Assembly: GCF_021026295.1 (NCBI RefSeq)
Contig: NZ_JAJNDA010000003.1
Location: 1-64,000, forward strand
DNA length: 64,000 nt
Source of the DNA: Actinomycetospora soli
GTDB lineage: Bacteria > Actinomycetota > Actinomycetes > Mycobacteriales > Pseudonocardiaceae
Direction of reading: 5' to 3'
The notes beneath the pieces were generated by a model. It was not told where the DNA came from, searched no databases, and worked only from the letters and a program-made list of their open reading frames with translations. The position numbers were made by a program, and so were the translations under genes. Shown piece after piece: positions 23,675 to 64,000 of the stretch. Each line of letters opens with the position of its first letter. Position 1 is the first letter of the stretch.

Positions 23675-23676
23675 GA

Positions 23677-23735: not shown

Positions 23736-23747
23736 ACGGGGTGGACG

Positions 23748-25965: not shown

Positions 25966-26127
25966 CCCGTCGACCTCCTCACGCGTCCGAGAACCCGACA
26001 CTCCATGGTAGGCGAGACATGGGTGCGAGGTCGGACGGCCGTGAGCGTGGTCGGCTCAGGCTTCCGGGTCGGTCGCGGGACCGGTGCCGGCGGCAGCGGT
26101 TCAGCCCACCGCCACCGGGCGCGGCAG

Positions 26128-27657
26128 TTAGGAGAGCACCCCCTCGAGCGAGCGCACCACCACCTGCGCGGTCTCCGCGGTGTCCGGGTCGGCGAACGGG
26201 TTCTCGGCGTGCCCGCGCCACCGGCCCAGTGCGGCGAGGGCCACGGCCCGCAGGTCGCCGGCCCCGGTGTCGTCGGCGACCCCGAGGCGGGCGGTCGGCG
26301 CCGGGCCCTGGTCGCCCAGCAGCCGCTCGGCCTCCTCGGTGAGCGCGGTGCCGGCGCGGCCGGGCACGTCGAGCGGCCGGCGCCGCAGGCGGGTCAGCAC
26401 GTCGAGCTCGACGATCTCGTGGGCGCCCGAGCGCACCCGCTCCACGTGCTCGGCGAGCGCGGCCAGAGCCGCCGGCGCGACGGGCCGCGGCACCCCCGCC
26501 CGCGGGACCGGGGAGGGCCGCGGGTCGACCACACCGGTCGTCGGGACGCCGCTGCGGGCCCGGGCGAGGAAGCGCTCGACGGCGAGCAGGGCCGAGCGGG
26601 CCTGGAAGACGTCGCGCCGGGCGAGGAACCGGGCCGCGAGGATGTCGCGCAGCTCGTCGAGACCGCTGCGGCGCCCGAGCTCGGTGGCGAGGGCGGCCGA
26701 GTCGTCGACCCCGCGGCGCAGCAGGGAGGTGGCGAGCCGGACGCCGAACAGCCCGAAGCGGTCCAGCAGCGCGAGCCGGGTCCCCGACGGCAGGACACCG
26801 GAGGCCTGCACGAACCGGTCGGCGGTGAGCAGTTGCGCGTCGAGCTCGGCGCGGTCGAGGCGGGCGAGCGCGCGCAGCGCCGTGAACTCCACCCCGCGCA
26901 GGGTGCGGGCGGTCTCCGCGACGAGGCCCGCGACCGTCGTCGTCGTGGCACACCACGGGCGCAGCGCCGGGTCGGTCCGGTAGCGGCGGGCGACCTGCTG
27001 GGCGGCCATCACCGCGTCGATGCGCCCGCCACCGACCTCGTCGGCGCGGGAGAGCACCACCAGCGTGCCCGCGGCGCCGACGTTCTCGGCCACACGGTCG
27101 CCGTAGGACTCCAGGAACGCGACGTCGGGTTCGTGCAGGTGGCGGACGAGGTGGACGACGCAGTCCACGACGTCCTCGGAGAACTCGCCCCAGACGCTGC
27201 GGGTCGCGGGGGAGTCGACGCCGGGCGTGTCGATGAGCGTGACGTCGCGCAGGTGCTGGGTCGGCCAGTCCACGTGCAGGGCGGCGACCCGGGCGAGGTC
27301 GAGCCGCTCGGTCTCGATCACGAGCGAGCCGCGGCGGTGCAGAGCGGGCAGCTCGACCGGGTCGTCGTCGCGGCGCGCGCCCCGGTAGGTCACCCCGATG
27401 CGGGGGCTGGGTCCGTCGGCGTAGTGGGTCGTGACGCGGGTGCACTCCCCCACCCCGGTCGGCGCGATCTGCTCGCCGACCAGGGCGTTCAACAGCGTCG
27501 ACTTGCCCGTCTTGATCGACCCGGCGAGCGCGACCCGCAGCGGGCCGCCGAGCCGGGCGCGCTGCGCGGTGAGGGCGCCGACCGCGTGCGGGTCGCCGGC
27601 GAAGACCGTGACGGCGTGGTCGAGGACGCCGCGCGTCTCGTCGAGCAGGCGGCTCAC
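26128..27657 (-). CDS. IniC-like dynamin-family GTPase, locus A
   Basis: 509 residues; GTG start overlapping the upstream GTPase stop by 4 bp. The G domain has G1 AGSIKTGKSTLLNALVG, switch region ECTRVTTHY, G3 LIDTPGVDS and a degenerate G4 VLSRADEV. After residue 200 it is helical, with ARTLRGVEFTALRALARLDRAELDAQ and LDRFGLFGVRLATSLLRRG, the latter typical of IniC-like bacterial dynamins. Such proteins assemble on membranes. It is the last gene of the iniB-iniA-iniC-like operon. A close paralogue lies at 56178-57746. Confidence 0.8.
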   Translation of the reverse strand: MSRLLDETRGVLDHAVTVFAGDPHAVGALTAQRARLGGPLRVALAGSIKTGKSTLLNALVGEQIAPTGVGECTRVTTHYADGPSPRIGVTYRGARRDDDPVELPALHRRGSLVIETERLDLARVAALHVDWPTQHLRDVTLIDTPGVDSPATRSVWGEFSEDVVDCVVHLVRHLHEPDVAFLESYGDRVAENVGAAGTLVVLSRADEVGGGRIDAVMAAQQVARRYRTDPALRPWCATTTTVAGLVAETARTLRGVEFTALRALARLDRAELDAQLLTADRFVQASGVLPSGTRLALLDRFGLFGVRLATSLLRRGVDDSAALATELGRRSGLDELRDILAARFLARRDVFQARSALLAVERFLARARSGVPTTGVVDPRPSPVPRAGVPRPVAPAALAALAEHVERVRSGAHEIVELDVLTRLRRRPLDVPGRAGTALTEEAERLLGDQGPAPTARLGVADDTGAGDLRAVALAALGRWRGHAENPFADPDTAETAQVVVRSLEGVLS

Positions 27658-29693
27658 CGGACACCTCCGGACGTGAGCTGCCGGTCGTGAGGGGAGGATT
27701 CGAGCGCTCTCGTGGCGCGAGGGTTCCCCTCGCGCGGGAGGGCGACCGCGAACCCGGCCCGACACGTCGCCACGCGCCCGGCGAGCAGCTCCACGCGCGC
27801 CAGCTCGGCCGTGACGTCGCGCAGCCGCCGGTCCCGACGTCCGCTCTCGACCTCCTGCGCGGCCGCGGCGGCGGTCACGGCCTCCGCCACCGACCGGGCG
27901 AGGGACTCGGCCTGCGCGGTGAAGTGGTCGCGCAGGGTGCGCTGGACGTCGCGCAGCAGGTCGCGCGACCGCTTGCTCGCCAGGTGCAGGACCTCGTCCC
28001 CGTGGCGGCGCACCGCCTGCTTGGCCTCGGCCCGGCGCCGCTGCAGCGCCCGTTTCCGCTCGTCCCGGATCGTCTTCGACCCGAGCAGGACCCCGGCCCC
28101 GACGGAGAACGGGTTGATCAGCGCGAGACCCGACAGCGTCGTCACCATCCCGACCATCAGCACCCCGCCGTACGACCCCCGCATCCCGACGACGAAGCCG
28201 TTGGCCCAGCCGATCCGCTCCAGGTCGGGGACCTCGATCCCCGGGACGTCGGGCAGTTCCGCCCGCACGACCATCCCGCCGGGCATCGTCTGCTCCAGCG
28301 GCGACTCGGGCGGGGTCGGCGCCACGACCGCGGCGGGCTCCGCCCCGGGCAGCTGCGAGCGCACCGAGCCGCCGGAGATCGCGAAGTGGTCGGCCACCCG
28401 CTCGGCGAGCCGCCAGGTGCGCTCCCCGGCCCAGATGAACGTCGTCGTGACCCCTTCCGAGATCTCCTCGGTGAACCACGGCGCGAAGGTGTCCCACGTC
28501 GACGCCGGGTCGGCCGCGTCGAGCGCCTCCTCCCCGGCGCGCACCACGTGCCGGATGCGGTCGCGCAGGTCCCAGTCGATGTCGGAGACCAGGTCCGCGA
28601 CCCCGTCGGCGAGCGTCTGCTGCCAGCGGGCGCTGCGCTCCTTGAGCTCGGCGGCGCGGTCGCGGGCGGCGGACAGCTCCCGGGTCATCTCGGCCGCGGC
28701 CTCCGGGTCGGAGAGCCCGATCCGCTCCGCCTCGAGGGCCGCGCCGAACTCGGTGACGGCCTCGGCGACCTGGTCGAGCACCGCGACGGTGTGTCGCGCT
28801 CCCGCCGGGTCCGCGACCTCGCCGCGCAGCAGGTCGGCCAGCGCCGGCACGCCGGACTCGGCGAGCAGCTCGTCGTCGCCGACCCGGCGGGCGTGGGCCG
28901 CGAGCGTCGCCGACACCGGGACCACCGGCACCCGCCGCAGGTCGTGCGCCCGCAGGTGGCGCAGGTCGAGGTCCCGGACCTCCCGCCAGCGCGGGTGCAG
29001 GTCGACCTTGGTGAGCGCGAGGACGACGACGGCGCACTGCCGGTCGGCCGCGCGCAGCAGGGCCAGCTCCGGGGCCGTGAGCTCCCTCGACGCGTCGGTC
29101 ACGACGACGACCGCGTGCGCGGCCGGGAAGCCCGCCCGGACGGCGAGCCCGCGGGCGGAGCGGGGCCCGCCCTCGCCGGGGGTGTCGACCAGGACGAGCC
29201 CGTCGCCGACGAGCCCGTCCGGCAGCTCGACCTCGGCGTGCGACCAGGCCGGGCCGGCGGTGTCGCGCCCGGAGACGGCGGCGGTCAGCTCGGCGGCGGA
29301 GACCCGCCGTCGGACCGGGGCCTCGTCCGGACCGTCCGGACCGTCACGCCCGTCGGGGCCGTCCGGACCGTCACCCGCCACCAGCACCGCGGACGGCGCC
29401 GGGCCGTGGCGCACGACGGTGGGGAGCCGGGTGGTGACGTCGTCGTGCACCGGGCAGACCGAGGTGCCCGCGAGCGCCGAGACCAGCGCGCTCTTGCCCT
29501 GCTTGAAGTCCCCGACGACGAGGACCCGCGCCCCGGGGTCCGCGAGACGGTCGGCCGCGGCGGCGAGGTCGGCCGCGAGGTCGGGGCGGCCGTAGGCCGT
29601 GGCGGCCCGGACGGCGAGTGCCGTCACCGCCCGCGCCTCGTCCCGGTCCGGGCCCGTCTCCGGTCCCGGTTCCCCCGCGTCCTGCCCCTCCAC
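27654..29693 (-). CDS. IniA-like dynamin-family GTPase, locus A
   Basis: 679 residues from a GTG with GGGGGAC upstream. G1 is GDFKQGKSALVSAL (61-74), G3 VDTPGEGG, G4 LALTKVDLHP. A long helical bundle follows (RSARWQQTLADGVADLVSDIDWDLRDR), then a hydrophobic paddle (residues about 495-540: GMRGSYGGVLMVGMVTTLSG, INPFSVGAGVLLGSKT) for membrane insertion, and a coiled-coil tail. Mycobacterial IniA, a membrane-remodelling dynamin induced by cell-wall drugs, has this layout. Unlike its paralogue at 57743, the G domain contains collagen-like GPD/GRD triplets before EAPVRRR. Confidence 0.82.
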   Translation of the reverse strand: MEGQDAGEPGPETGPDRDEARAVTALAVRAATAYGRPDLAADLAAAADRLADPGARVLVVGDFKQGKSALVSALAGTSVCPVHDDVTTRLPTVVRHGPAPSAVLVAGDGPDGPDGRDGPDGPDEAPVRRRVSAAELTAAVSGRDTAGPAWSHAEVELPDGLVGDGLVLVDTPGEGGPRSARGLAVRAGFPAAHAVVVVTDASRELTAPELALLRAADRQCAVVVLALTKVDLHPRWREVRDLDLRHLRAHDLRRVPVVPVSATLAAHARRVGDDELLAESGVPALADLLRGEVADPAGARHTVAVLDQVAEAVTEFGAALEAERIGLSDPEAAAEMTRELSAARDRAAELKERSARWQQTLADGVADLVSDIDWDLRDRIRHVVRAGEEALDAADPASTWDTFAPWFTEEISEGVTTTFIWAGERTWRLAERVADHFAISGGSVRSQLPGAEPAAVVAPTPPESPLEQTMPGGMVVRAELPDVPGIEVPDLERIGWANGFVVGMRGSYGGVLMVGMVTTLSGLALINPFSVGAGVLLGSKTIRDERKRALQRRRAEAKQAVRRHGDEVLHLASKRSRDLLRDVQRTLRDHFTAQAESLARSVAEAVTAAAAAQEVESGRRDRRLRDVTAELARVELLAGRVATCRAGFAVALPREGNPRATRALESSPHDRQLTSGGVR

Positions 29694-30006
29694 GTCGTCC
29701 CCCCGCGTCGGTCTCCGCTCCCGGACGTGGCCCTCCTCGGACCAGTCCGTTGGGCCGTTCGGACGACCCTAACGCGCGCGCCCGGCCACACCGGGGCGAC
29801 GCGGACGCCCGGACGGTGGACAGCGGGACGGCTCGTCGGGGCCGGACACGAGAACAGCCGGGACCCCTGACGTGGAGGGGTCCCGGCTGTTCGGGTCGGG
29901 TCGCGGCGGGCGCGGTCGCCACGACCCGTCCCGGGGGCGAGGTGCGGGGGGCAGCCCCCGGGACGTCGTGCTCGGCGCGGGCGCCCCGGACGGGGCGCCC
30001 GATCCG
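29694..30006. other. Intergenic region between iniB-like and iniA-like genes
   Basis: This 313-base gap holds the terminator-like hairpin at 29852-29892. The part next to the iniA-like start (29694-29850) has no convincing promoter boxes, and no small reading frame is evident. Confidence 0.5.
29852..29892. terminator. 17-bp hairpin between iniB-like and iniA-like genes, locus A
   Basis: Arm 29852-29868 (GAACAGCCGGGACCCCT) pairs perfectly with 29876-29892 around a seven-base loop. It follows the iniB-like gene on the minus strand, so iniA-iniC transcription would depend on read-through or a separate promoter. Locus B has a hairpin in the same place. Confidence 0.75.
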
Positions 30007-30945
30007 TCAGTCGTCGACGCCGTCGTCCACGGCGTCGGCGAGGTCGTCGGCGGTGACGGGGCCGCCGTCGGAGAACACAGAGTCGGAGATCGAGTTGTCG
30101 GTCTCCGTGGTGGTCTCCGTGCTGGTCTCGTTGCCGCTGTCGGTGACGGAGTTGTCCGACTCGTCGGTGACCGTGATCGTCTCGGTCTCCGAGTTGTCCG
30201 GCGTGGCGTCGCCCTGCGAGGAGGCGGCACCGGAACCGAAATTGGTGGCCGATTCGTCGGTGTTCTCGCCGGCCGCGGTGTCGTTCAGCGAGACGGCCGA
30301 GCCGTTGTTCGCGGCGATCGAGCCGCCGACGCTCGCGGCGTCGCCCTCACCGAAGGCCGCGGTGCCGTCGCCGTTCATCATGTTGCCCTCGCCGGCCTGC
30401 GAGCCGTCGCCGGTCGCGACCGGGGCGGTGATGTCCTCGCCCGCGGCCACCGCGCCGTCGCCGGAGGCGATCGTCGGGCTGATGTCGAGCGTGGTGGTCA
30501 CGTCGCCGTTGGCGCGGATGTTCTGCTCGAGGTTGGTCTCGAAGTTCGTGTCGTGCGAGTCGTACGCGTAGTTGTTCGTCACGTACTGGAGCTGCTGGAT
30601 GACCTTCTCGATCTCCGGCGAGTGCGGCGGGAGGACGGGGCCGGGGATCCAGTGGTGCTCGCCGCCACCGTGGTGGTGGTGCTCCTCGCCGACGACCGCG
30701 ACGGCCGAGGCGGAGGCGGCGCGGACGTCGTCGTCGTAGCGGGCGGCGACGGCGGCCGGCGCGTGGTCCATGACGAGCGGCAGGGCGTCCCGCACGTCGG
30801 CGAAGCACATCCCGTCCAGGCCGGCCGCCGCGAGGGTGGCCTGGGGGTTGGCGTCGAACTCCGCCTGGGTCTGCGGGTCGCGCAGCAGGTCGAGCAGGAA
30901 CTGCAGCAGGGTCTTGGCCTCGGTCGCCGGCATCGTCGTCTCCAT
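30007..30945 (-). CDS. IniB-N-domain protein with Gly/Asp-rich repeat tail, locus A
   Basis: 312 residues; AAGGAG precedes the first ATG, and a second ATG five codons in is also usable. Residues 10-65 form the IniB N-terminal helical domain (LLQFLLDLLRDPQTQAEF, NPQATLAAAGL). Residues 86-98 are His-rich (EEHHHHGGGEHH). YVTNNYAYD begins an acidic, Thr/Asn/Ser-rich repetitive tail with GDG steps (GDGAVAAGED, ATGDGSQAGEGNMMNGDG, AAFGEGDA), possibly beta-solenoid or disordered. No signal peptide or membrane helix is seen. It is divergent from the Hsp70-like gene. The exact role is unknown. Confidence 0.8.
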   Translation of the reverse strand: METTMPATEAKTLLQFLLDLLRDPQTQAEFDANPQATLAAAGLDGMCFADVRDALPLVMDHAPAAVAARYDDDVRAASASAVAVVGEEHHHHGGGEHHWIPGPVLPPHSPEIEKVIQQLQYVTNNYAYDSHDTNFETNLEQNIRANGDVTTTLDISPTIASGDGAVAAGEDITAPVATGDGSQAGEGNMMNGDGTAAFGEGDAASVGGSIAANNGSAVSLNDTAAGENTDESATNFGSGAASSQGDATPDNSETETITVTDESDNSVTDSGNETSTETTTETDNSISDSVFSDGGPVTADDLADAVDDGVDD

Positions 30946-31242
30946 GTGCTCCTTCCGGACCTGTCTGATCCGGCGTTGGGAGCAACGTTAGAAATCCCGA
31001 GCCGCCTCGACATCGGTGTTCCCCCCGCGAACCCGATCCGGGGAGGAGGGGGATCCGACCACCCCCCGGGGATCGCGACCCCCGGGTCCCGTTCACCCCA
31101 CCAGCCCCACCGTTCACCCGACTCTCGACGCCCACTCGGGTGGCGACCCTCAACTGTGACTCTTCTTCCTCCGATTGGCGCAGTATGTTGCGCTTGACGG
31201 GGGAGCGCCGGTGTGCGGTCGACCGAGTGATGGGGGAATACG
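30946..31242. promoter_or_regulatory. Divergent promoter region of locus A
   Basis: The 297 bases between the iniB-like and Hsp70-like starts must hold both promoters. On the minus strand TAACGT lies upstream of the iniB-like ribosome site. Near 31170-31190 a GCGCA-N6-TGCGC inverted repeat surrounds TATGTT and may be an operator for the plus-strand genes. Boxes are too weak to fix start sites. Confidence 0.4.
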
Positions 31243-33477
31243 GTGGGTTACGACCTGGGGGTCGACCTGGGCGGGACGACGGTCGTCGCGGCGGTCCTGC
31301 GTGACGGCGAGGCCCGCGCGGACGCCGTCGGACTCGGGACCGACGGGTCCCCGAGCATGCCCGCCACCGCCCACCGCGGCAGCGACGGGGTCGTGCGGAC
31401 CGGGGCGGACGCCGAGCGGCGCGCCGCCCTCGAGCCCGACCGCGCCGTCCGCGACGTCACGGCGCGCCTCGGCGACGACGTCCCCCTGATCGTCGGCGAC
31501 GAGCCGTGGCGCGCGGACGACGTGGCCGCGGAGATCGTGCTGGCCGCCGTGCGGCGGGTCGCCGCCCTCGAGGGCGGTGCCGCGCGGGCGCTCGCCGTCA
31601 CGCACCCCGCCGGCTGGGGCTCGCACCGCGAGCGCACGCTGCGCCGGGCGCTGGTCCGGGTCGGGCTGGGACACGCCACGCTCGTGGCCGAGTCGCGGGC
31701 GGCCGTGCTCGCCGCGTCCACCTACGGCGGGCTGCGTGCCGGCCGGGTCGCCGCGGTGTACGACCTCGGCGGCCGCCGCTTCCGCGCCGCCGTCATCCGA
31801 CGCGGCGCGCGCGGCGTGGTCGCCTCCGGCACGGAGGGCGGTGCCGCCGCGCCCGGCACGACGACGACCGAGGTGCTCGCCGACTCCGGCGCCCCGGTCC
31901 GCGCCGGGGGCACCGACGTCGACGCGGCCGTCCTCGCGCACGTCCGCGAGGAGCTCGGCGAACCGTTCGACGCGGCGCTCGCCGCCCTCGACGACAACGC
32001 CTCCCGCCACGCGCTCGCCACCCTCCAGCGGTCCGCGCGGGTGGCCAAGGAGCGGCTGTCGGCCGACACCGAGGCGCCGCTGCGGGTGACGGTCGGCCCC
32101 CTGGACACGACCGTCCGCATCACCCGCGCCGACCTCGAGGCCCGCATCACGCCGCTGGTCGCGGCCACCGTCGACGCCTTCGCCGGGACCCTCGAGGCCG
32201 CCGGCGTGACGCCCGACCAGGTCGTCCTCGTCGGCGGCTCGTCCCGCATCCCGCTCGTCGCGCGCCTGCTCGCCGAGGAGCTCGGCCGCCCGGTGCACCC
32301 CGAGCTCGACCCCATCACGGTCGTCGCCGAGGGTGCGGCCCTCGCCGCGGCCGGACACGCCGCGGCCCGTCGGCACGAGGCCCTCACCGGCCCCGCCTCC
32401 GGTTCCTTCCCGACGACCGGCCCCGCCTCGGGTGCCTTCCCGACGACCGGTCCCGCCTCGGGTGCCTTCCCGACGACCGGTCCCGCCTCGGGTGCCTTCC
32501 CGGCGACCGGGCCGGCGTCCGCGCCGTTCGCCGCCACCGCGGCGGGTGTGCGGGAGCGGCGCCGGGTCGAGGCGGAGCGGCGACCGGTCCCGACCGGGGC
32601 GTCCGACCGACCCGCGCCGGTCGAGCGGCACGCCGCCGTCGGCGCCGCCATCGCCGCGGGCGCCGCGCTCGGGGCGTCCGCCGCCCGGTCGCGCACCCCG
32701 GTCGCGACCTCGGCACCCGCCTCCGGCGACGGCGACTGGGGTCCCCCCTCCGCCCTGCCCGCCACGACCGAGGAGGCACGTCCCGCACGGTCGGGCTCGA
32801 CGGCGCTCATGGAGCGGCCCCGGACCCCGAACGACGACGTGCCGCGCCCGCCGGTCGCGACCGCCGCCGCGCCGGTCGGCGAGCACGCCCCCCAGGGGGT
32901 GTTCCAGCGCTACCGGACGGCGCTGCTCGTGCTCCTGGTCCTCCTCGTGCTGGCCGCCGCGGCCGTGCTCGTGCCGATCCCCGGACTGACGACCGCCCGG
33001 ACCTCGTCGACCACGACCACCACGCCGGCCCCGACCACGCCGCCGCCCGGACCGACCCCGGCGGCCGCCGCGCCGCTCGTCCCGCTCCCGCCGACCGGGC
33101 CGGCGTCCTCCCCCGAGGCTGCACCACCCGCCGACGGGACGACGGAGCAGGAGCAGTCCTCCGACGCCGGGACCACCACCCGCCGACCGGCCACGACGAC
33201 CCGCTCCTCCCGCACCCCGACCGCGCAGAACGTGCGACCCGCGGGCGGCTCGGCCCCGGTCGCCGCGCCGCAGGCCGTGGGGCCCGCCCCGTCCCCGGCC
33301 GCGGTGCAGCCCGCCCGGCCGGCGCAGCCCGCCCCACAGGAGCCCGCCGCGTCGGCGCCCTCCCCCGACGTCGCGAGCCCCGCGGCGCAGGCCCCCGCGG
33401 CCACCCCGTCGGCCGCGGACACGCCCGTCGCCTCGGCGCCGAGCAGTGTCGCGCCGACGACCGGGACGCCCTCGTGA
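31243..33477 (+). CDS. Membrane-anchored Hsp70-like protein with degenerate ATPase site, locus A
   Basis: 744 residues, GTG start. Residues 1-375 form an Hsp70-type actin fold: DLGVDLGGTT, VTHPAGWGSHRERTLRRAL and VLVGGSSRIPLVARLLAEEL. No substrate-binding beta domain follows. Instead come five 10-residue repeats (TGPASGAFPT, 382-431), a linker, one membrane helix (about 560-582) and a Pro/Thr-rich tail of about 160 residues that should lie outside the cell. The phosphate-2 loop reads DLGGRRFR in place of DLGGGTFD, and the DnaK Lys70 position is Thr73, so ATP hydrolysis is doubtful. It overlaps the LuxR gene by 4 bp. Confidence 0.82.
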   Translation: MGYDLGVDLGGTTVVAAVLRDGEARADAVGLGTDGSPSMPATAHRGSDGVVRTGADAERRAALEPDRAVRDVTARLGDDVPLIVGDEPWRADDVAAEIVLAAVRRVAALEGGAARALAVTHPAGWGSHRERTLRRALVRVGLGHATLVAESRAAVLAASTYGGLRAGRVAAVYDLGGRRFRAAVIRRGARGVVASGTEGGAAAPGTTTTEVLADSGAPVRAGGTDVDAAVLAHVREELGEPFDAALAALDDNASRHALATLQRSARVAKERLSADTEAPLRVTVGPLDTTVRITRADLEARITPLVAATVDAFAGTLEAAGVTPDQVVLVGGSSRIPLVARLLAEELGRPVHPELDPITVVAEGAALAAAGHAAARRHEALTGPASGSFPTTGPASGAFPTTGPASGAFPTTGPASGAFPATGPASAPFAATAAGVRERRRVEAERRPVPTGASDRPAPVERHAAVGAAIAAGAALGASAARSRTPVATSAPASGDGDWGPPSALPATTEEARPARSGSTALMERPRTPNDDVPRPPVATAAAPVGEHAPQGVFQRYRTALLVLLVLLVLAAAAVLVPIPGLTTARTSSTTTTTPAPTTPPPGPTPAAAAPLVPLPPTGPASSPEAAPPADGTTEQEQSSDAGTTTRRPATTTRSSRTPTAQNVRPAGGSAPVAAPQAVGPAPSPAAVQPARPAQPAPQEPAASAPSPDVASPAAQAPAATPSAADTPVASAPSSVAPTTGTPS
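32386..32535 (+). repeat. 30-bp tandem repeat inside the Hsp70-like gene
   Basis: Five units of 30 bases (32386, 32416, 32446, 32476, 32506) encode TGPASGAFPT-type decapeptides. Units 2-4 are nearly identical and the last is degenerate. The in-frame unit length allows expansion or loss without frameshift. Confidence 0.9.
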
Positions 33478-34991
33478 CTCCCGAGCCCACCGACGGCGCC
33501 GCAGCCACCCGGGCCGCGCTCGCTGGCGACTCCGACACCGCCCTGCGACTCGCCGACGTCGCGTTGCGCACCGGTGACGGCGCCGACCGCCTGCTCGGTG
33601 CCCGGGTGCTCGCCGCGGTCCTCCCCCAGCGCGGGCTGCTCGCCCGGGCCGCGGAGGTGCACCGATGGCTCGCGCGGCAGGACGCGGCCACTCCGGACGC
33701 CGTGGTCAGCCTGCTCGGCACCGGCGCGCTCGACGAGGCGCGCGGCGCGCTCGCCCCCGCGGCCGACGCACTGCCCGGGCTGCGCGACGGCGCCGACACG
33801 CTCACCGCCGAGGGGCTGCTCGCCTCGGTCGACGGCCGCGACACGACGGCGGGTACCTCCCTGTCCTTGCTGGTCCGCGCGACGACCTCCCTCGCGGCGA
33901 CCGGTGAGCGGACCCCGGCCGCCGACTCCCCCGCCGCCCTCGGCGCGCTGCTCGCGCTGCACCGCGGGGAGCCGGAGCTCGCGGACCCGCTGCTCGACCT
34001 CGCCGTCGACGCGGACCTCGGCGGCCCCGCCCTGCGCCGTCGGCACCTGCTCCTGCGGGCGTGGTCGGCGATGCTGCGCGACGACGAGGCCGCCGCCCGC
34101 GCCGCCCTGGCCGCCGCCGACGACCTGCCGGGCACCCCGGAGCCGCGCGACGCGCTCGTCACCGTGGCCTGCGAGGTCGCCCTCGCCCGCCGGGCCGGCG
34201 ACACCCGCCGCCTGCTCGACCTGTGGTCGCGCGCCCGGCAGGCCCTCCTGCGCCACCCCGTCGACCTGTACTGCCTGCTGCCCGTCGGCGAACTCGCGAT
34301 CGCCGCGGCCCGGCTCGGCGAGAGCCGGTGGGTCGACCCGCACCTCGCCGAGGCCACCGCCCTCCTCGCGTCGCTGGGCGACCCGCCCTCGTGGTCGACC
34401 TCCTGGCACTGGGCGCGGCTGCACGCGGCCATCACCGCCGACGACCGCGCCGCCGCCGGCGACCACGCGGCCGCCCTCGAGGACGCCGCGCAGACCAACG
34501 ACCGCGCGGTCGCCCCCGCCCGCGCCGCCCGCGTGTGGCTCGCGGTGCTGGCGGGCGAGATCGACGCCGAGGCGGTCGTCGCGACGGCGACCGCCCTACG
34601 TGCGGTCGGCCTCGCCTGGGACGGCGCGCGCCTCGCCGGCGAGGCCGCCATCCGCACCACCGACCGCACCGACTCGGCCACCCTCCTCGCCTGCGCCCGC
34701 GCCCTCCAGGCCGGCCGCGTCCCCACGGCGCCCGAGCCCCTTCCCGACGCCGGGTCCTCCCGGGCCGCCGCGGTCACCCGCGCCCGGCGGGAGGCGACGT
34801 TGACCGACCGGGAGCGCGACATCGCCGAACTCGTACTGGAGGGCCTCACCTACCGCGAGATCGCCGGGCGCCTGTTCCTCTCGACGAAGACGGTCGAGCA
34901 CCATGTCGCGCGCATCCGCCGTCGCCTCGGCTCGGAGAGCCGGGCCGAGCTGTTCAGCGAGCTGAAGGTGCTGGTCGCATGTGAGCACTAA
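33474..34991 (+). CDS. LuxR-type transcriptional regulator, locus A
   Basis: 505 residues from a GTG overlapping the Hsp70-like stop. Residues 1-420 are a helical-repeat domain rich in Ala/Leu/Arg (AALGALLALHRGEPELADPL, RRRHLLLRAWSAM, ARRAGDTRRLLDLWSRARQ) that resembles TPR-type sensor regions; no P-loop is present. The C-terminal LuxR HTH is clear: LTDRERDIAELVLEGLTYREIAGRLFLSTKTVEHHVARIRRRLG. It is presumably the private regulator of the divergent iniB-like operon. The stop codon lies inside the 40-bp palindrome at 34981-35020. Confidence 0.82.
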   Translation: MTPEPTDGAAATRAALAGDSDTALRLADVALRTGDGADRLLGARVLAAVLPQRGLLARAAEVHRWLARQDAATPDAVVSLLGTGALDEARGALAPAADALPGLRDGADTLTAEGLLASVDGRDTTAGTSLSLLVRATTSLAATGERTPAADSPAALGALLALHRGEPELADPLLDLAVDADLGGPALRRRHLLLRAWSAMLRDDEAAARAALAAADDLPGTPEPRDALVTVACEVALARRAGDTRRLLDLWSRARQALLRHPVDLYCLLPVGELAIAAARLGESRWVDPHLAEATALLASLGDPPSWSTSWHWARLHAAITADDRAAAGDHAAALEDAAQTNDRAVAPARAARVWLAVLAGEIDAEAVVATATALRAVGLAWDGARLAGEAAIRTTDRTDSATLLACARALQAGRVPTAPEPLPDAGSSRAAAVTRARREATLTDRERDIAELVLEGLTYREIAGRLFLSTKTVEHHVARIRRRLGSESRAELFSELKVLVACEH

Positions 34992-55346: not shown

Positions 55347-56246
55347 ATGGCCCGCACCCGCGTCGTCCCCGCGCTCGTCCTCCTCTGGCTCTGCTGGGGC
55401 TCGTCGTTCCCCGCGATGCGCGTCGTGGTCGAGTCGCTGCCGCCCCTCACCACGTCCGGCGCGGTCTTCCTGACGGCGGGTGTCGTCCTCGCGGTGGTGC
55501 ACGCCCGCGACCTGCGGCGGGCGCCCCTGCTCGCGCTGCGCCGGGCCGCGCTGGTCGGCGCGTGCCTGCTCGGGGCGCAGGGCCTCGCGGTGGTCGCGGT
55601 GGTGCGCGTCCCGGCATCGACGTCGGCGCTGCTCGCGCCGTCGATCCCGCTGTGGCTGGTGGTGCTGCGGGCGGCCCTCGGCGAGCGGGTGGGGGCGCGG
55701 GAGCTGGCCTGCCTGGCCGTCGGGCTCGGCGGGGTCGCGGTGATCGTGGTGATCGAGGCGGGCGGGCCGGGGTGGACGCCCTGGGTGCTGCTGGTGCTCG
55801 GGACGAGCATCCTGTGGGCCGCCGGGACACTCGTCGCCGCCCGCAGCGTGGTCCTCCCCGCGCCCGGGGCGACCACCGCGGTGCAGCTCGTGACGGGCGG
55901 CGCGCTCGTCCTCACCGCCGGCCTGGCGCTCGACCCGGCCCCACCCGGCGTCGGGAACGCCTCCTCGTGGGCGGCCGTGGCGGTGCTCCTCGTGGTCGAC
56001 TCGCTCGGCGGGTTCGCCCTGTTCACGTGGCTGCTGCGGCACGCGCCGGTGTCGGTGGTCGGCACGTACGCGTACGCGGTGCCGGTGGTCGCCTACCTCG
56101 CGGGCGTGCTGGTCCTGGGCGAGCCGTTCCACCCGGTGGTGCTGGTCGGCGCCGCGCTCGTGCTGGGCGCGGTCGCGCTACAGGTGCGTCAGCACGCCCT
56201 CGCAGGACCGCACGACCGCGCGGGCGACCTCCGCCGCGGCGCGTGA
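55347..56246 (+). CDS. EamA/DMT-family transporter
   Basis: 299 residues with ten hydrophobic helices in two EamA repeats. The N-terminal VLLWLCWGSSFPAMRVVVESLPP and the second-repeat APVSVVGTYAYAVPVVAYLAGVLVLGEPFHPV are typical. Such proteins export amino acids or metabolites. The last 23 codons overlap antisense with the end of the iniC-like gene (56178-56246). It is divergent from the LysR gene. GGACTCATGTCC-like dyads between them could be LysR sites. Confidence 0.88.
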   Translation: MARTRVVPALVLLWLCWGSSFPAMRVVVESLPPLTTSGAVFLTAGVVLAVVHARDLRRAPLLALRRAALVGACLLGAQGLAVVAVVRVPASTSALLAPSIPLWLVVLRAALGERVGARELACLAVGLGGVAVIVVIEAGGPGWTPWVLLVLGTSILWAAGTLVAARSVVLPAPGATTAVQLVTGGALVLTAGLALDPAPPGVGNASSWAAVAVLLVVDSLGGFALFTWLLRHAPVSVVGTYAYAVPVVAYLAGVLVLGEPFHPVVLVGAALVLGAVALQVRQHALAGPHDRAGDLRRGA

Positions 56247-57746
56247 GGTCAGCGGCGACTCCGCCCGGGTGCGCCACCGGTCGAGCGCCTCGAGGGCCGC
56301 GGCGCGGGGGTCGTCGGCGCCGCCGAGCCGGTCGGCCGGGTCGGGACCGTCGCCGCCGAGCAGGCGCTCGGCCTCCGGCTGGGTTTCCGGGGGCATCGTC
56401 ACCTGCCCCTGGCGCAGCGCCGCGAGCAGGCGCTGCTCGGTGAACTCGTGGGCGCCGGAGAGGACGCGCTCCAGCTCGGCGGCGAGCGCACCGGCGTCGG
56501 GACGCGGCGCCCGCGCGAGCACCATCTCGACCGCGAGCAGCGCCGACCGCGCCTTGTGCACGTCGCGGCGCCCGACCACCCGCGACGCGAGCACCTCGCG
56601 CAACTCCTCGAGCCCGGAGCGCCGGACCAGCTCCTCGGCCAGCGACACCGAGTCGACCACGCCCCGCCCGGTGCGCGCGCCCCGGCGCAGCACCGTGGTC
56701 GCGGTGCGGATGCCGTAGACGCCGAACCGGTCCATCAGCGCGCGCCGCGTGGGCGCGTCGAGCCGCACGCCGTCCGGGTCGGACGCGAGGGCCTCGGCGA
56801 CGACGGCGGGCGGCTCGGCCGCGCAGAACCGGTCGACCGAGAGCAGCAGCGCGTCGACCTCCGCGCGGGGCGCCCGGGCCAGCGCCCGCAGCGCCGTGAA
56901 CTCGGCCTGCCGCAGCGTCCGCGCGGTCTCGGCGAGCAGCCCGTCGACCGCGACGACCGTCTGGCACAGGGGCCGCAGCGCCGGGTCGGCGCGGTACGCC
57001 CGGGCGACCTGACCCGCCGTCGTGATGGCGTCCAGTCCGCCGCCGCCGATCTCGTCGGCGCGCGAGAGGACCACGACGGTGCCGGACGCGCCCACCGCGC
57101 CGAGGCCGCCCGCGCCACCGCGGGCGAGGTCGGCGAACGCCTCGAGGAACCCGACGTCGTTGCGGTGCGCGTGGCGCATCAGGTAGACGACGGCGTCGGC
57201 GCCGGAGGGGCGGTCGTCGGGGGTGACGAAGGCGAGTGTGCGCCGCGAGTTCGTCTCGCGGATCGAGTCGAGCCCGGGGGTGTCGACGAGCGTCGTCTCG
57301 GCCAGCCCGCGGGAGGGCCAGTCGACGAGCAGCCGCCCCACCCGCGCCGGGTCGACGCCGCGCAGGTCGATCCGCAGACCCTCCCGGTCCTGCGCGAACG
57401 GGACGGGGCCGCGGCGCCCGTCGACGTCCTCGCGCGTGACGGTCGGCGAGGGCGCGTCGCGGTACCAGGTGACCAGCCGCGTGCACTCGCCCGCGTCGGT
57501 CGCCGCCACCCGCTCCCCCACCAGGGCGTTGAGCAGGGTCGACTTGCCGGCCTTCAGCGTCCCGGCCAGCGCCACGCGCAACGGCTCGTCGAGCCGGGCC
57601 CGCGCGTCGTGCAGCACCGCCCGCGCCCAGTCGGTGGCCGGATCCGCGGGCCCACCGCCGTAGAGCCGCTGCGCGTTCCCGACGACGGCCCGGGCCTGGT
57701 CGGTCAGCCGGCCGGCGGTCGGCCGGGGGTCCACGTGGCGGGTCAC
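56178..57746 (-). CDS. IniC-like dynamin-family GTPase, locus B
   Basis: 522 residues, GTG overlapping the iniA-like stop by 4 bp. G1 AGTLKAGKSTLLNALVG, ECTRLVTWY, G3 LVDTPGLDS, and VLSRADEIGGG in place of G4 match the locus A paralogue (AGSIKTGKSTLLNALVG, VLSRADEVGGG). The helical part has ARTLRQAEFTALRALARAPRAEVDAL and MDRFGVYGIRTATTVLRRG. It is the last gene of the operon. The 3' end overlaps the EamA gene by 69 bp on the other strand. Confidence 0.8.
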   Translation of the reverse strand: MTRHVDPRPTAGRLTDQARAVVGNAQRLYGGGPADPATDWARAVLHDARARLDEPLRVALAGTLKAGKSTLLNALVGERVAATDAGECTRLVTWYRDAPSPTVTREDVDGRRGPVPFAQDREGLRIDLRGVDPARVGRLLVDWPSRGLAETTLVDTPGLDSIRETNSRRTLAFVTPDDRPSGADAVVYLMRHAHRNDVGFLEAFADLARGGAGGLGAVGASGTVVVLSRADEIGGGGLDAITTAGQVARAYRADPALRPLCQTVVAVDGLLAETARTLRQAEFTALRALARAPRAEVDALLLSVDRFCAAEPPAVVAEALASDPDGVRLDAPTRRALMDRFGVYGIRTATTVLRRGARTGRGVVDSVSLAEELVRRSGLEELREVLASRVVGRRDVHKARSALLAVEMVLARAPRPDAGALAAELERVLSGAHEFTEQRLLAALRQGQVTMPPETQPEAERLLGGDGPDPADRLGGADDPRAAALEALDRWRTRAESPLTSRAAAEVARAVVRSCEGVLTHL

Positions 57747-59554
57747 GCCCCGACCAGCCGGGCCGTCCCGACGCTCTCCCGGATTCGGCGCGCCCGCTTC
57801 TCCAGGGCGTCGAGCCGCTCGATCTCGGCCTCGACGTCGGCGAGCCGGGCCTGGCGCTTCGCCCCGTCGGCCTCCACCGCCTTCGCGGCCTGCGAGGTCG
57901 CGTTGAGGGAGCGCTCGAGCTGCTCGGCGGTGCCCGTGAAGTGGTCGCGCAGGGTCCGCTGGACCTCGCGGAGCATGTCGCGGGAGTTCTTGCCCGCCTG
58001 GAAGATCACGTCGTCGACGTGGCGTCGGACCGCCTGCTTGGCCTCGGCCTGACGACGCCTCAGCGCGCGCTTGCGCTCGTCGACCAGCGTCTTCGAGCCG
58101 AGCAGCAGGCCCGCGCCGACCGAGAACGGGTTGAGCAGCGCCATCCCCGCGATGGTGGTGAGCATGCCGATCATCAGGACGCCACCGTAGGAGCCGCGCA
58201 TCCCGATCATCAACGACTGCGAGAGCCCGAACTTCTCGTGGTCCGGCGCGGCCAGCATCCCGACCGGGTCGGCCGCCATCGCCTGCCCCTCCGGCGAGGC
58301 CATCGGGGGCAGGACGCCGGCGCCGTCCTCGGCGAAGTGGGTCGCGACCCGCTCCGCGAGCCACCGCGTGCGCTCCTCGGCCCACACCACGTTGGTGGCC
58401 ACCGCCGCCGACACCTGCTGGTGCAGCCACGGGGCGAACTGTTCCCACGTCTTGGCCGGGTCGGTGTCGTCGAGGGCCGCCTCCGCGTCGGCGGTGACGG
58501 TGCGCAGCCGGTCGCGCAGGTCGTACTCGATGTCGGAGACGAGGTCCTGGGTGCCGTCGTTGAGGGTCTGCTGCCAGCGGGCGGCCCGGTCGCGCAGGGC
58601 GGCCACGCGGGCCTTGGACCGTTCGAGCTCGTCGTCGATGCGCCGGGCCCGGTCGGGATCGGCCAGGGCGTCACGCTCGGCGCGGAAGCGGGCGGCGAGC
58701 TGCTCGCAGACGACGAGCACCTCGTCCGTGGCCATCCGGGTCCGCCGGGCGTGGCGGCCGCCGACGACCTGCTCGCGCAGCAGCTCCCGCACCTCCGGGA
58801 CGCCGGACTCGGCGAGCAGGGAGGCCTCGTCGTGCAGGGCCAGCACGGCCGACGTGGGCAGGATCGGGATGCGGCGCAGCGACTCGTGGGCGTGGTCGAG
58901 GTGGCCGCGGTCGAGGTCGGCGATCCGGCGCCAGTGCGGGTGCAGATCGGTGCGGGTGAGCACCACCGCGACCGTCGGGCACACCGCGGCGGCCGTGCGC
59001 ACCAGGGCCAGCTCGGGGGCGGTCAGCTCGCGGCCCGCGTCGCAGACCAGCAGCACCGCGTCCGCTCCGGGCAGCTCGGCCATCGTCGAGACCGACGCGG
59101 GCGAGGCCAGCCCGCCCGCGCCCGGGGTGTCGACGAGCCGCAGGCCCTCGAGCACGTCGACCGGCAGCGTCGCCTCGGCGTGCGACCAGCCGGCCGCGTT
59201 GTCCGGGTTGCCCGCCTCGGTGACGTGCTCGGCGAGCTGGGCCGGGGAGATCGACTGCTGCTCCTGCCCGCCCTCGACGGCGCGGACCAGGGTCACGCCG
59301 CGCTGGGTGCCGCGCACGCAGATGGTCGGCACCGTCGTGGCCTTGTGGGCGTCGGTCGGCAGGGCGCGGCCGCCGAGCAGGGCGTTCACCAGCTCGGTCT
59401 TGCCGGCCTTGAACTCGCCCATCACCAGCACGCGCGCCCGGTCGTCGGCGACCGACGCGGCCACCGTCGAGAGCCGCTTCTCCAGGTCCGGCCGCCCGTA
59501 GGCGGTCGCGGCCTGGCGTGCGGTCTTCACCAGGTCGACCAGGTCCCTGCTCAC
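57743..59554 (-). CDS. IniA-like dynamin-family GTPase, locus B
   Basis: 603 residues from a GTG preceded by GGGAGG. G1 is GEFKAGKTELVNALL (46-60), G3 VDTPGAGG, and G4 reads TRTD where locus A has TKVD. The stalk has RAARWQQTLNDGTQDLVSDIEYDLRDR. The membrane paddle is GMRGSYGGVLMIGMLTTIAG, NPFSVGAGLLLGSKT, almost identical to locus A. A C-terminal coiled coil (ADVEAEIERLDALEKRARRI) follows. It lacks the collagen-like insert of the paralogue. Membrane remodelling is inferred from IniA and bacterial dynamins. Confidence 0.82.
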   Translation of the reverse strand: MSRDLVDLVKTARQAATAYGRPDLEKRLSTVAASVADDRARVLVMGEFKAGKTELVNALLGGRALPTDAHKATTVPTICVRGTQRGVTLVRAVEGGQEQQSISPAQLAEHVTEAGNPDNAAGWSHAEATLPVDVLEGLRLVDTPGAGGLASPASVSTMAELPGADAVLLVCDAGRELTAPELALVRTAAAVCPTVAVVLTRTDLHPHWRRIADLDRGHLDHAHESLRRIPILPTSAVLALHDEASLLAESGVPEVRELLREQVVGGRHARRTRMATDEVLVVCEQLAARFRAERDALADPDRARRIDDELERSKARVAALRDRAARWQQTLNDGTQDLVSDIEYDLRDRLRTVTADAEAALDDTDPAKTWEQFAPWLHQQVSAAVATNVVWAEERTRWLAERVATHFAEDGAGVLPPMASPEGQAMAADPVGMLAAPDHEKFGLSQSLMIGMRGSYGGVLMIGMLTTIAGMALLNPFSVGAGLLLGSKTLVDERKRALRRRQAEAKQAVRRHVDDVIFQAGKNSRDMLREVQRTLRDHFTGTAEQLERSLNATSQAAKAVEADGAKRQARLADVEAEIERLDALEKRARRIRESVGTARLVGA

Positions 59555-59575
59555 CGAGCCTCCCAACGCACACGA

Positions 59576-59605
59576 AGGCCGGGACACGGTCTCGTGTCCC
59601 GGCCT
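59576..59605. terminator. 13-bp hairpin between iniB-like and iniA-like genes, locus B
   Basis: AGGCCGGGACACG pairs perfectly with CGTGTCCCGGCCT around a four-base loop. The position matches the hairpin at 29852-29892 in locus A, but the sequence differs. Confidence 0.75.
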
Positions 59606-59692
59606 CGTCGTCACCCCGGGGACGTTACGCGGCGCGCTCCGACCGTCGCGCCGCTCGTCCCCGGGGCGGGTGTTGCCCCCTGCTCAGACGAC

Positions 59693-60622
59693 TCAGAGAG
59701 CGTGGTCGAGCAGGCCGAGGTCCACCGAGTTGTGGTGCACGTCGAGGTTGGTCGACGCGTCGGTGTTGGTGTTGCCCGAGTCGTGGGTCGAGGCGTCGGT
59801 GTCGGTGTTGCCCACGTCGTGCTGGTGGTTCGACGAGTCGACGTGGCTCGAGTTGTCCTGGTCCGAGTTGTCGGTGTGCGTCGAGTTGTCGTTGTGCGAG
59901 TCGGTGTTCTCGCCGTTGGCGCCCGACACCTGGTTGCCGTCGCCGAAGGCGTTCGAGTTGTTCACCGTGCCGGAGCCGGTGGAGATGACGCCGCCGTCGC
60001 CGGTGCCGACGTGGTCGAGCGACGTGGCGTTGCCCGCACCGAAGGCGGTGGTGGAGCCGTCGCCGGAGACCTGGTTGCCGTCACCCACGAAGCTGTGGTC
60101 GCCGGTCACGACCGGGGCGTTGTTGTCGCCACCGATGAAGCTGCCGTGCTCACCGACGTTGGTCGTGGTGTTGTCGACGTGGATGTCGGCGTCGTCGCCG
60201 GCCCAGATCTTGGTGATGTTGTTGGTCTCGTTGTACGTGTTGTGCGAGTTGTCGACGAAGTTGTAGTTGTTCGTCACGTAGTTCAGGTGCGCGATCGACT
60301 GCTCGATCGGCGAGCAGTGCGCGGCCGGGCGGCCCTCGTCGTCGCAGTCGATCGGCTTGCAGTGGTGGTCGTCGTCGTGGTGCTTCGGCTCGGCGTCGTA
60401 GCAGTGGTCGTCGTCGCAGTCGTCCTCGTACTGCGCGCACTTCTCGGCGTCGACCTTCTCTAGGACGACCGGGAGGAGCTCCTTGATGTCGTCGACGCAG
60501 ACGTCGCCGAGGCCGGCGGCGTGCAGGGCGGCCTCCGGGTTGTCGCGGAAGTCGGCGAGCGCCTCGTGGTTGCTCAGCAGGTCCATGAGGAACTCGAGCA
60601 GCGTCTTCTCGGCCACGGCCAT
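59693..60622 (-). CDS. IniB-N-domain protein with Cys/His/Asp-rich segment, locus B
   Basis: 309 residues. The N-terminal IniB-type helices (TLLEFLMDLLSNHEALADF, NPEAALHAAGL) match locus A. Residues 62-103 contain six Cys and many His/Asp (KCAQYEDDCDDDHC, HHDDDHHC, DC, HC), a plausible metal-binding region. LNYVTNNYNF then starts an Asn/Asp/Gly/Ser-rich tail with VTGDHSFVGDGNQVSGDGS and AFGAGNA, repeating the locus A pattern, and ends in NTDTDAST/NTNTDAST repeats. No signal peptide is seen. Function is unknown; scaffold or metal sensor are guesses. Confidence 0.8.
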   Translation of the reverse strand: MAVAEKTLLEFLMDLLSNHEALADFRDNPEAALHAAGLGDVCVDDIKELLPVVLEKVDAEKCAQYEDDCDDDHCYDAEPKHHDDDHHCKPIDCDDEGRPAAHCSPIEQSIAHLNYVTNNYNFVDNSHNTYNETNNITKIWAGDDADIHVDNTTTNVGEHGSFIGGDNNAPVVTGDHSFVGDGNQVSGDGSTTAFGAGNATSLDHVGTGDGGVISTGSGTVNNSNAFGDGNQVSGANGENTDSHNDNSTHTDNSDQDNSSHVDSSNHQHDVGNTDTDASTHDSGNTNTDASTNLDVHHNSVDLGLLDHAL

Positions 60623-60879
60623 GGTGTGTGCCCCTGTAGGTCGGAGTGTGAGCGCTGCGGGCCGGACGACCCGAGCGGCGTGGTGAGAACAGTCGTCGTC
60701 CGGGGCCGCCCGGCCATCGGGGCTCCCGCCGGGTTCCCGGACCGACCCCCTAGGGGATCCGGGCCCGGTCCCCCGGTCAGCACCCCGGGGTCACGGCACG
60801 TGAACCAGCTCCACCATCCGAACGGAGCAGGGTCACTCGTTCGAGCTACGAATGTGTAACGGTCATCGGGATCGGGTCG
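60623..60879. promoter_or_regulatory. Divergent promoter region of locus B
   Basis: The 257 bases between the iniB-like and Hsp70-like starts must drive both operons. On the plus strand TTCG-N5-CGAA and a TAACGG box lie about 25 bases before the first ATG. On the minus strand TACAGG precedes the iniB-like ribosome site. No sequence clearly shared with the locus A promoter region was found by eye. Confidence 0.4.
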
Positions 60880-63030: not shown

Positions 63031-64000
63031 GCGCCCCCGAGCTCGAGCGCCCGATGACCACGGATCTCGTCGTCCTCGCGGAGCAGGCCGCCCTGACCGG
63101 CGAGCTCGTCGAGGCCGCCCGGTGCGCCGACGAGGTGCTGGCCACCGACGCGCCCGAACGCGACCTCGTCCGCGCCGCGCGCGTGCTCGCCGCGGTACAC
63201 GCCCACCGCGGGATGCTGACCGACGCCGCGGAGCTCCACGCCTGGGTCGCCGCCGTCGCCCCGGCCGGCGCCTCCCCCGCCGCCGCCGTCGCTCTCGTCG
63301 GCACCGGCCGCGAGCTCCCCGACTCCCCCGCCGACCTACGCCGTCCCGCGCCTCCGACCCTCCGGACCGGGGCCGACGGCCTCGTCGGGAAGGCGATCCG
63401 CGCGAGCGTGCGGCCCGGCGGGTCGGCGTCGGCGCTGTCCGAGCTGACCCGGGCCGCCGCCATGCTCGAGTGCTGCGCCACCCCGGTGCTGCACGACGAC
63501 TCCCCGGCCGCCCTCGGCGCCCTGGTCGCCCTGCACCGCGGGGAGCCCGACCTCGCCCGGACCCTCGTCGACCGCGCGATCGCCACCGACCTCGGTGGCG
63601 CGCCCTACCGCCGCCGGCACCTGCTGCTGCGCGCGTGGGCGGACATGGCGGGCGGCGACCTGCTCGCGGCCCGTGCCGGGCTCGACGCCGCGAACGCCCG
63701 CCCGGAGCCGGTGCACGCGCGGGACGAGCTGGTGGCGGTGGCGCTGGAGGCCGGCCTGGTCCGGCGCGCCGGCGACACCCGCGGCCTGCTCGCCGTGTGG
63801 TCCCGCGCGCGCGAGGCGGTGCTGCGGCACGCCGTCGACCTGTGGTCGCTCCTCCCGATCGGCGAGCTCGCCGTCGTGGCCGGACGCCTGGGCCAGCTGG
63901 GGTGGCTCGCCCCGCACCTGCAGGCCGGCGACGAGCTGCTCGCCGCTCTCGGCGAGCCGGTGCTCTGGGCCGCGCCGTGGCACTGGTGCGCCTTCCTCGC
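63027..64000 (+). CDS. LuxR-type regulator, locus B (partial)
   Basis: The first 324 codons are present from a GTG overlapping the Hsp70-like stop; the C-terminus, including the expected HTH, is beyond the window. It aligns along its length with the locus A regulator, for example SPAALGALVALHRGEPDLAR, GGAPYRRRHLLLRAWADMAG, RRAGDTRGLLAVWSRARE and VDLWSLLPIGELAVVAGRLG. No P-loop is visible in the helical-repeat sensor part. Confidence 0.75.
   Translation, partial: MSAPELERPMTTDLVVLAEQAALTGELVEAARCADEVLATDAPERDLVRAARVLAAVHAHRGMLTDAAELHAWVAAVAPAGASPAAAVALVGTGRELPDSPADLRRPAPPTLRTGADGLVGKAIRASVRPGGSASALSELTRAAAMLECCATPVLHDDSPAALGALVALHRGEPDLARTLVDRAIATDLGGAPYRRRHLLLRAWADMAGGDLLAARAGLDAANARPEPVHARDELVAVALEAGLVRRAGDTRGLLAVWSRAREAVLRHAVDLWSLLPIGELAVVAGRLGQLGWLAPHLQAGDELLAALGEPVLWAAPWHWCAFL

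Follow-up and report, generated by a model that had tools for sequence, protein, structure and literature searches.

An Hsp70-like gene as a regular companion of iniBAC/IniR-type clusters and its occurrence in two paralogous modules of Actinomycetospora soli

The first 64,000 nucleotides of contig NZ_JAJNDA010000003.1 from Actinomycetospora soli (assembly GCF_021026295.1, family Pseudonocardiaceae), referred to here as the window, contain a five-gene cluster at positions 26,128 to 34,991 (module A) that is related to the mycobacterial iniBAC genes and their regulator IniR and also carries an Hsp70-like gene. Three genes lie on the minus strand and code for an IniC-like dynamin GTPase of 509 amino acids (26128..27657, GTG start; Dynamin_N, 4.3e-14), an IniA-like dynamin GTPase of 679 amino acids (27654..29693; Dynamin_N, 8.7e-13, above the cut-off), and an IniB-like protein of 312 amino acids (30007..30945; IniB_NTERM, 2.4e-18). 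The iniC gene directly follows iniA with a 4-bp overlap. Divergent from these, on the plus strand, are genes for an Hsp70-like protein of 744 amino acids (31243..33477; HSP70, 2.3e-25), labeled IniH herein, and for a short IniR of 505 amino acids (33474..34991; NF038181, 1.6e-91; GerE, 2e-14), which overlap by 4 bp (GTGA). Open reading frames (ORFs) and family searches for each gene bear out the place and strands given by an earlier, sequence-only reading of this DNA, along with its assignment of an IniB N-terminal-domain protein and two dynamins to the minus strand. The IniB-like protein scored 65.8 bits against the model for the IniB N-terminal domain (NF038175, cut-off 40), and a profile (A3) with the module A IniA-like protein as its first row matched M. 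smegmatis IniA (6j72) at 4e-251. The IniB-like protein has a helical N-terminal domain followed by low-complexity, probably disordered sequence; its AlphaFold2 model is confident only for about residues 1–70 and has no confident fold past that point. The same model (30007–30945) weakly resembles precursors of borosins, a class of ribosomally synthesized and post-translationally modified peptides (Foldseek, best E value 0.64).

The regulator matches NF038181, the model for IniR, from position 333 to 826 of 827, and the first third, with the ATPase domain, is missing. An unrelated LuxR-type regulator was considered and rejected, since this match makes the protein the C-terminal two thirds of IniR. 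Its score of 307.9 bits is below the equivalog cut-off of 750, as are those of full-length IniR homologues from the family of the window (404 and 415 bits), while four IniR proteins of another genus, g3, pass it (1,272–1,434 bits). Judged by these scores, the module A regulator is an IniR homologue rather than an IniR equivalog, and the telling point about it is the missing first third, not the low score. An alignment with 16 relatives placed modules A and B (a second copy, described below) and one further locus (L119) among sequences that lack the Walker-A part, which most others have, and regulators in the other loci of the genus are ~507–527 amino acids long when measured from the hsp stop codon. 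The AlphaFold model of the module A protein is an all-helical superhelix with a LuxR-type helix-turn-helix (HTH) domain (mean predicted local distance difference test score of 92.5). Rap proteins and MalT domain III are among its top structural matches (Z 18.5–19; for MalT domain III, Z 18.5 and 5.6 Å over 334 residues), and these show the fold only, since Rap-type and other helical repeats score equally. IniR is described as an activator that binds upstream of iniBAC in mycobacteria (PMC5760070), and its AAA domain has been proposed to sense ATP (PMC6104191). Mycobacterial IniR consists of an AAA ATPase, a MalT-like middle part, and a LuxR HTH; module A keeps the middle part and the HTH but lacks the AAA domain. 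A superhelical sensor joined to a LuxR HTH is likewise shared with MalT-type STAND regulators, but the NTPase domain of that group is absent from modules A and B and present in a third cluster of this genome and in most of the aligned relatives. ATP sensing through the AAA domain is therefore impossible in modules A and B.

Matches of IniH to HSP70 (PF00012) are confined to the nucleotide-binding domain (NBD), ending at profile position 376 (module A) or 377 (module B) of 599, and there is no match to the substrate-binding domain. A membrane helix is predicted around residue 561 of module A IniH (Kyte-Doolittle score 3.2), with a tail of 165 residues and 23% proline, which agrees with the Hsp70 fold, single membrane helix, and proline-rich tail first read from the sequence. 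In the NBD of DnaK, a lysine, a threonine, and an aspartate are catalytic. All three are lost in module A, where the lysine is a threonine and GGGTFD has become GGRRFR (threonine and aspartate to two arginines), and all are intact in module B. Among 86 non-redundant loci, the three residues are complete in 23 and absent in part or whole in 63. Mapping this state on the IniA tree gave at least five changes while the gene was kept, which we read as losses. A predicted helix is present in 42 of the 86 loci, so a membrane helix and wall-reaching tail are not a general feature: it occurs in 19 of the 23 intact proteins (tails of 141–251 amino acids) versus 23 of the 63 degenerate ones, leaving 40 degenerate proteins without it. 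The four intact proteins that lack a helix include a contig-end fragment (L125) and two with borderline scores. The complete form is thus probably an active, membrane-anchored NBD with its tail outside, and module A has probably retained the anchor and lost catalysis; the predicted topology would place the NBD in the cytoplasm. The peptide P.RP..[ILVA]..PL follows the NBD in 44 of the 86 proteins, although it was not seen in module A, and may resemble the interdomain linker of DnaK. IniH therefore shares with Hsp70/DnaK chaperones an actin-like NBD, with intact motifs in module B, but differs from them in lacking a substrate-binding domain, in its membrane helix and proline-rich tail, and, in module A, in its lost catalytic residues. 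A class-wide search with an NBD alignment found hits in 283 of 296 genomes at 1e-40 and does not separate this subfamily from ordinary DnaK. Mycobacterial-type members among the matches listed score ~200–210 bits, like DnaK, and gene context and the membrane helix were used instead.

All five genes recur in the window as a second copy (module B) that begins at 56,178 and runs past the window end at 64,000. The IniC-like dynamin (56178..57746), the IniA-like dynamin (57743..59614), and the IniB-like protein (59693..60622; IniB_NTERM, 7.5e-16) are again encoded on the minus strand. Encoded on the plus strand are IniH (60880..63030; HSP70, 1.9e-39, profile positions 103–377), with the motif VYDLGGGTFD intact, a helix at 544, and a 154-amino-acid tail, and a short IniR (63027..64000) that runs past the window end and has 515 amino acids in full (locus L126). 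Gene by gene, modules A and B are 41%–50% identical over the aligned parts (49% for the IniC-like pair). A third, related cluster lies in the same genome on contig C69 (L125) and comprises iniB-, iniA-, and iniC-like genes, an hsp gene with intact motifs that is cut by the contig start, and a full-length IniR of 869 amino acids that matches the IniR model from 5 to 825 of 827, NTPase domain included.

The distribution of these genes was surveyed in genomes drawn from the class, the family, and the genus. IniB_NTERM was found in 29 of 296 genomes from the class, 161 of 200 from the family, and 8 of 18 from the genus. IniA was detected at 1e-40 in 40 of the 296 class genomes and IniR at 1e-50 in 27, all of which also have IniA. 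Sixty regions were fetched around IniB hits; four had no module gene and one (L126) was module B, leaving 55, one of them the C69 cluster. Every fetched region with iniA has hsp (49 of 49). Forty-five of these were in the first tally, and four from the genus of the window (L120, L122, L123, and L124) were counted after an overlapping wrong-frame ORF had been removed. Five of the six fetched regions without iniA were without hsp in the tally (L090, L116, L117, L118, and L130), although L130 does have an Hsp hit inside the region in the class-wide search. Among named loci, sampled as the best 80 of 568 relatives found with an IniR alignment, 74 have hsp, 71 have iniA, and 60 have all five genes; hsp is present in 67 of the 71 with iniA. 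In three of the four misses (L156, L178, and L179), the sequence stops soon after the final module gene; the fourth (L165) continues ~3.5 kb past the last iniB with no hsp. The named and unnamed sets overlap in part, with the same species in both, and the genera with loci include Pseudonocardia, Amycolatopsis, Lentzea, Saccharothrix, Geodermatophilus, Micromonospora, Arthrobacter, Georgenia, and Rhodococcus. Chance clustering of the five genes was rejected, as the set recurs across the sampled loci. Conserved synteny had been put forward as the check on the module, and the Hsp70/IniR pair indeed lies beside iniBAC in most of the sampled loci, which come from several actinobacterial families. 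Co-oriented hsp and iniR genes within 1.5 kb of each other form 97 pairs. In 64 of them, iniR could begin in frame with a 4-bp overlap of the hsp stop, an upper count in that the start nearest the overlap was chosen. A Pseudonocardia-type order has iniR beyond iniC, with hsp still next to iniB (L163, L176, L187, and L222).

Genus g3 is called mycobacterial-type because its IniR proteins pass the cut-off and the IniA of one of its loci (L127) matches M. smegmatis IniA with 1,014 bits. Eight of ten further regions are from this genus, and all eight have iniA and an hsp beside iniR that codes for a predicted helix (8 of 8). Together with four earlier regions (L127, L132, L134, and L146), hsp is present in 12 of 12 g3 regions with iniA and stands beside iniR in 11; in L146 it lies beyond iniC. 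The presence of hsp is not peculiar to M. smegmatis, since it is in the cluster in all 12. The two further regions from outside g3 comprise one without iniA (L255) and one (L256) in which iniA lies 6 kb from a 201-bit Hsp hit, possibly an ordinary DnaK. Five mycobacterial-type loci (L247, L248, L250, L252, and L253) have at least two Hsp-like genes around iniR and iniC.

The sequence-only reading knew of no described system with this composition, a claim that does not hold: the module is a paralogous iniBAC/IniR, and a dnaK-like gene by iniR of M. smegmatis was mentioned in 2017 (PMC5760070). The mycobacterial system, as presented in PMC5760070 and PMC6715688, has the same IniB N-terminal domain, the same IniA/IniC dynamins in the order B-A-C, and an IniR-type regulator in the cluster. 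It differs in that the text consulted (PMC5760070) mentions the dnaK-like gene for M. smegmatis only, while here, and in most of the sampled relatives, an Hsp70-like gene belongs regularly to the cluster, and in that the window has two paralogous modules. The system belongs with iniBAC/IniR, with a regulator that is derived in this genus. The less known part is the Hsp70-like gene as a regular iniBAC member, which is barely mentioned in the literature searched; literature listings turned up no description of Hsp70 as a module part beyond Boot 2017. Conflict systems of DO-GTPases and HSP70 (PMC7159879) similarly encode GTPases together with Hsp70, in some cases without a peptide-binding domain, but use another TRAFAC GTPase family, with GAP1. 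These systems (Kaur 2020) were considered and set aside as the identity of the module.

Two sequence motifs recur upstream of iniB. In 113 non-redundant iniB upstream regions drawn from 154, RATCCCCTAAY (box 1) was found in 90 and RATCCCCGATG (box 2) in 85, compared to 5.3 and 4.1 in first-order shuffles and 14 and 7 on the reverse strand. Both boxes occur together in 75 regions and box 1 is in tandem in 62; spacings of 35–36 and 59–61 bp are the commonest, with a few at 48–49 bp. Controls in real DNA were counted on the redundant set. For genes that do not face iniB, sense matches to box 1 and box 2 were found upstream of hsp in 1 and 0 of 19 regions (antisense, 2 and 4), and upstream of luxR each box was found in sense in one of 107 (antisense, 1 and 0). 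In the 99 regions with hsp and iniB facing each other, boxes 1 and 2 are directed toward iniB in 95 and 91 and toward hsp in 14 and 5. Outside the main set, 12 dynamin regions were scored, and the threshold was reached by box 1 in two (L239, and L234, which has a diverged IniR) and by box 2 in four. Module B has a box 2 (AGCCCCGATG, 60709..60728, minus strand, 15.3 bits) and, 36 bp from it, a box 1 (GGATCCCCTAG, 60745..60764, minus strand, 12.6 bits), and the C69 cluster has a weak box 2 (10.9 bits). A putative box 2 with the core ACACCGATG lies 79 bp upstream of the module A iniB start (31005..31024, minus strand, 13.2 bits) and recurs in three fetched orthologues (L119, L122, and L124), while the only box 1 match in this group is a distant hit at −299 in two of the four.

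We infer that IniR binds these boxes, which are probably IniR sites. Counting against this assignment, the boxes were derived from the same sequences in which they were counted, module A has no convincing box 1, and box 2 could instead be a promoter element. The site reported for HpoR in BCG is a different one. Searching the text of Boot 2017 gave no motif, nor was an IniR binding motif found in the open-access literature on IniR, which was partly covered. Shared regulation of the two divergent operons had been anticipated from the sequence. The candidate boxes point mainly toward iniB and seldom toward hsp, so such regulation looks one-way.

Whether Hsp tracks the dynamins or the regulator was assessed with partial correlations of distance matrices from the 86 loci (300 permutations), which are suggestive only. 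Over all loci, the Hsp-IniC correlation was 0.53 (0 of 300 permutations as high), Hsp-IniR 0.13 (16 of 300), and Hsp-IniA −0.01 (147 of 300), and a run on partial IniC sequences gave the same ranking. For the 39 loci with intact IniC, the values were 0.59, −0.07, and −0.14, and for the 22 with both Hsp and IniC intact they were 0.57, −0.21, and 0.43. The GTPase residues of IniC are degenerate in 47 of the 86 loci, 46 of which also have a degenerate Hsp; IniA is intact in 83. A Fisher P value of 5e-9 for this joint decay was dropped as proof, as the loss is mostly one clade and independent pairs are not significant. Loss of the IniC P-loop was also rejected: best-scoring domain segments alone had misled, and the full proteins mostly keep the P-loop (lysine to arginine in 7 of 86), with the part from P-loop to G3 shortened in many. 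A further 20 regions were selected by the strength of their Hsp or IniA hits, and eight of these have Hsp, iniA, and iniC; all eight are without detected IniB and seven without IniR. Hsp lies less than 3 kb from the nearest dynamin in L232, L233, L234, and L240 and 9–13 kb away in L227, L228, L229, and L231; all eight regions are from other families.

We favor, with a probability of about 0.45, a duplicated and derived iniBAC/IniR envelope-stress response in which the Hsp70-like IniH is a dedicated, regular fifth component that mainly serves the dynamins. IniR would bind the direct-repeat boxes upstream of iniB and switch on iniB-iniA-iniC, and the IniA/IniC pair would then remodel or bud damaged membrane with IniB as an accessory. 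GTP-dependent fission activity is described for IniA in PMC6715688, where purified IniC was too unstable to study, and a review (PMC11077946) relates that loss of iniAC in M. tuberculosis lowers vesicle output. In its complete form, IniH would be anchored in the membrane, its NBD on the cytoplasmic side and its disordered tail outside. Its primary partners would be the dynamins, IniC in particular, which it would help to assemble or would tether at the membrane in an ATP-dependent way. Being made together with IniR, it may also inform the regulator of the condition of the dynamin machinery. In module A, IniH would act only as a tether or scaffold because both ATPases of the regulatory arm are gone (the AAA domain of IniR and the catalytic residues of IniH), and IniR might act as a MalT-like, ligand-operated superhelix. 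A bolder version is doubtful. It makes the membrane-anchored Hsp70-type ATPase the missing partner of IniA and IniC across actinobacteria, driving assembly or disassembly of IniC at the damaged envelope and gating IniR, with Hsp70 as the switch in the genus of the window, where the regulator has no ATPase domain of its own. Hsp70 and dynamin in eukaryotic vesicle traffic serve as the model for the proposed Hsp-driven assembly or disassembly of IniC.

Several results weigh against a role centered on the dynamins. In the 46 loci with degenerate IniC, the Hsp-IniC correlation falls to 0.04 and the Hsp-IniR and Hsp-IniA correlations are 0.24 (0 of 300) and 0.39. Joint loss in Hsp and IniC is mostly confined to one clade on the IniA tree, with a non-significant independent-pairs test. 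The 20 further regions include four with dynamins and no Hsp and eight with Hsp and no dynamins (L235, L236, and L241–L246), and in four of the seven IniR-free Hsp/dynamin regions the two are 9–13 kb apart, with three within 3 kb. The 97 co-oriented hsp/iniR pairs favor a link to the regulator as much as one to the dynamins. On balance, we lean toward Hsp as a partner of the dynamins with an additional tie to the regulator. IniH could instead be chiefly the partner of IniR, a membrane tether or anti-activator that holds the regulator until envelope damage frees it, much as MalT is held at the maltose transporter, a comparison drawn for IniR in Boot 2017. This chiefly regulatory role is a tentative but serious alternative: hsp and iniR are co-oriented and close, with a possible 4-bp overlap in 64 pairs, module A retains IniH despite its lost ATPase motifs, IniR here keeps a MalT-like superhelix with no NTPase of its own, and the correlation with IniR does emerge in the IniC-degenerate loci. 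It is harder to reconcile with an Hsp-IniR correlation that is weak overall (0.13) and −0.07 where IniC is intact, with the Pseudonocardia-type order, in which hsp stays by iniB and iniR is found beyond iniC, and with hsp near dynamins in regions that lack IniR. The same observations bear on the proposal in the sequence-only reading that the Hsp is a sensor feeding the regulator. Co-orientation with iniR speaks for it, but Hsp divergence follows IniC more closely, Hsp occurs with IniR-free dynamins, and the ATPase motifs are destroyed in module A, so a sensor is not the sole reading.

Other roles for IniH or for the whole module appear less probable. Membership in the Hsp70 family and the reported instability of purified mycobacterial IniC (PMC6715688) would suit a dedicated folding chaperone for IniC or IniR, but this is unlikely for a protein whose HSP70 match covers the NBD only (105–376 of 599 in module A and 103–377 in module B) and whose catalytic residues were repeatedly lost while the gene was kept. 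Decay of module A, with only module B still working, is improbable. Its Hsp has lost catalysis, box 1 is missing, and in the IniA tree the module A group has a long branch (0.68), but none of its five frames is interrupted, and orthologues that share the Hsp changes persist in three further genomes from the genus (L119, L122, and L124). Least probable, and very much so, is a dynamin-based anti-phage or conflict system unrelated to envelope stress. The dynamins have weak PADLOC matches to LeoBC (5.7e-11) and LeoA (4.1e-5 and 2.4e-5), and conflict systems that pair a GTPase with Hsp70 exist (PMC7159879). The homology to IniA, IniB, and IniR and a gene content that is conserved, rather than made up of variable effectors, argue otherwise; PADLOC matched neither IniB nor Hsp at 0.001, and its match to the regulator was no larger than an HTH. 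Searching the text of PMC7159879 for dynamin, iniA, or IniR likewise returned none of them.

Six flanking ORFs that were searched are unrelated and belong to ABC transporter, hydrolase, molybdopterin oxidoreductase, BrkB, EamA, and LysR families. Module A iniC is directly followed on its own strand, after a gap of ~127 bp, by hrcA-like (24946–26001) and dnaJ-like heat-shock ORFs, both named by eye. A 30-nt inverted repeat (23674–23738; 90% complementary, 5-nt loop) lies near the end of the dnaJ-like gene. Another, of 25 nt with no loop and 96% complementarity (51910–51959), lies near the end of a transporter-like ORF, also named by eye, and has the look of a strong terminator separating convergent genes.

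The iniBAC promoter serves as a reporter in work on cell-wall drugs (PMC6104191), and the iniBAC dynamins have been tied to the release of extracellular vesicles (PMC11077946). The Hsp70-like protein is a candidate for a missing component in damage sensing by IniR and in the action of IniC, and the proposed IniR operator sequences recur across genera. Natural variants with a short IniR, a dead Hsp, or a degenerate IniC make IniR sensing and IniC function testable.

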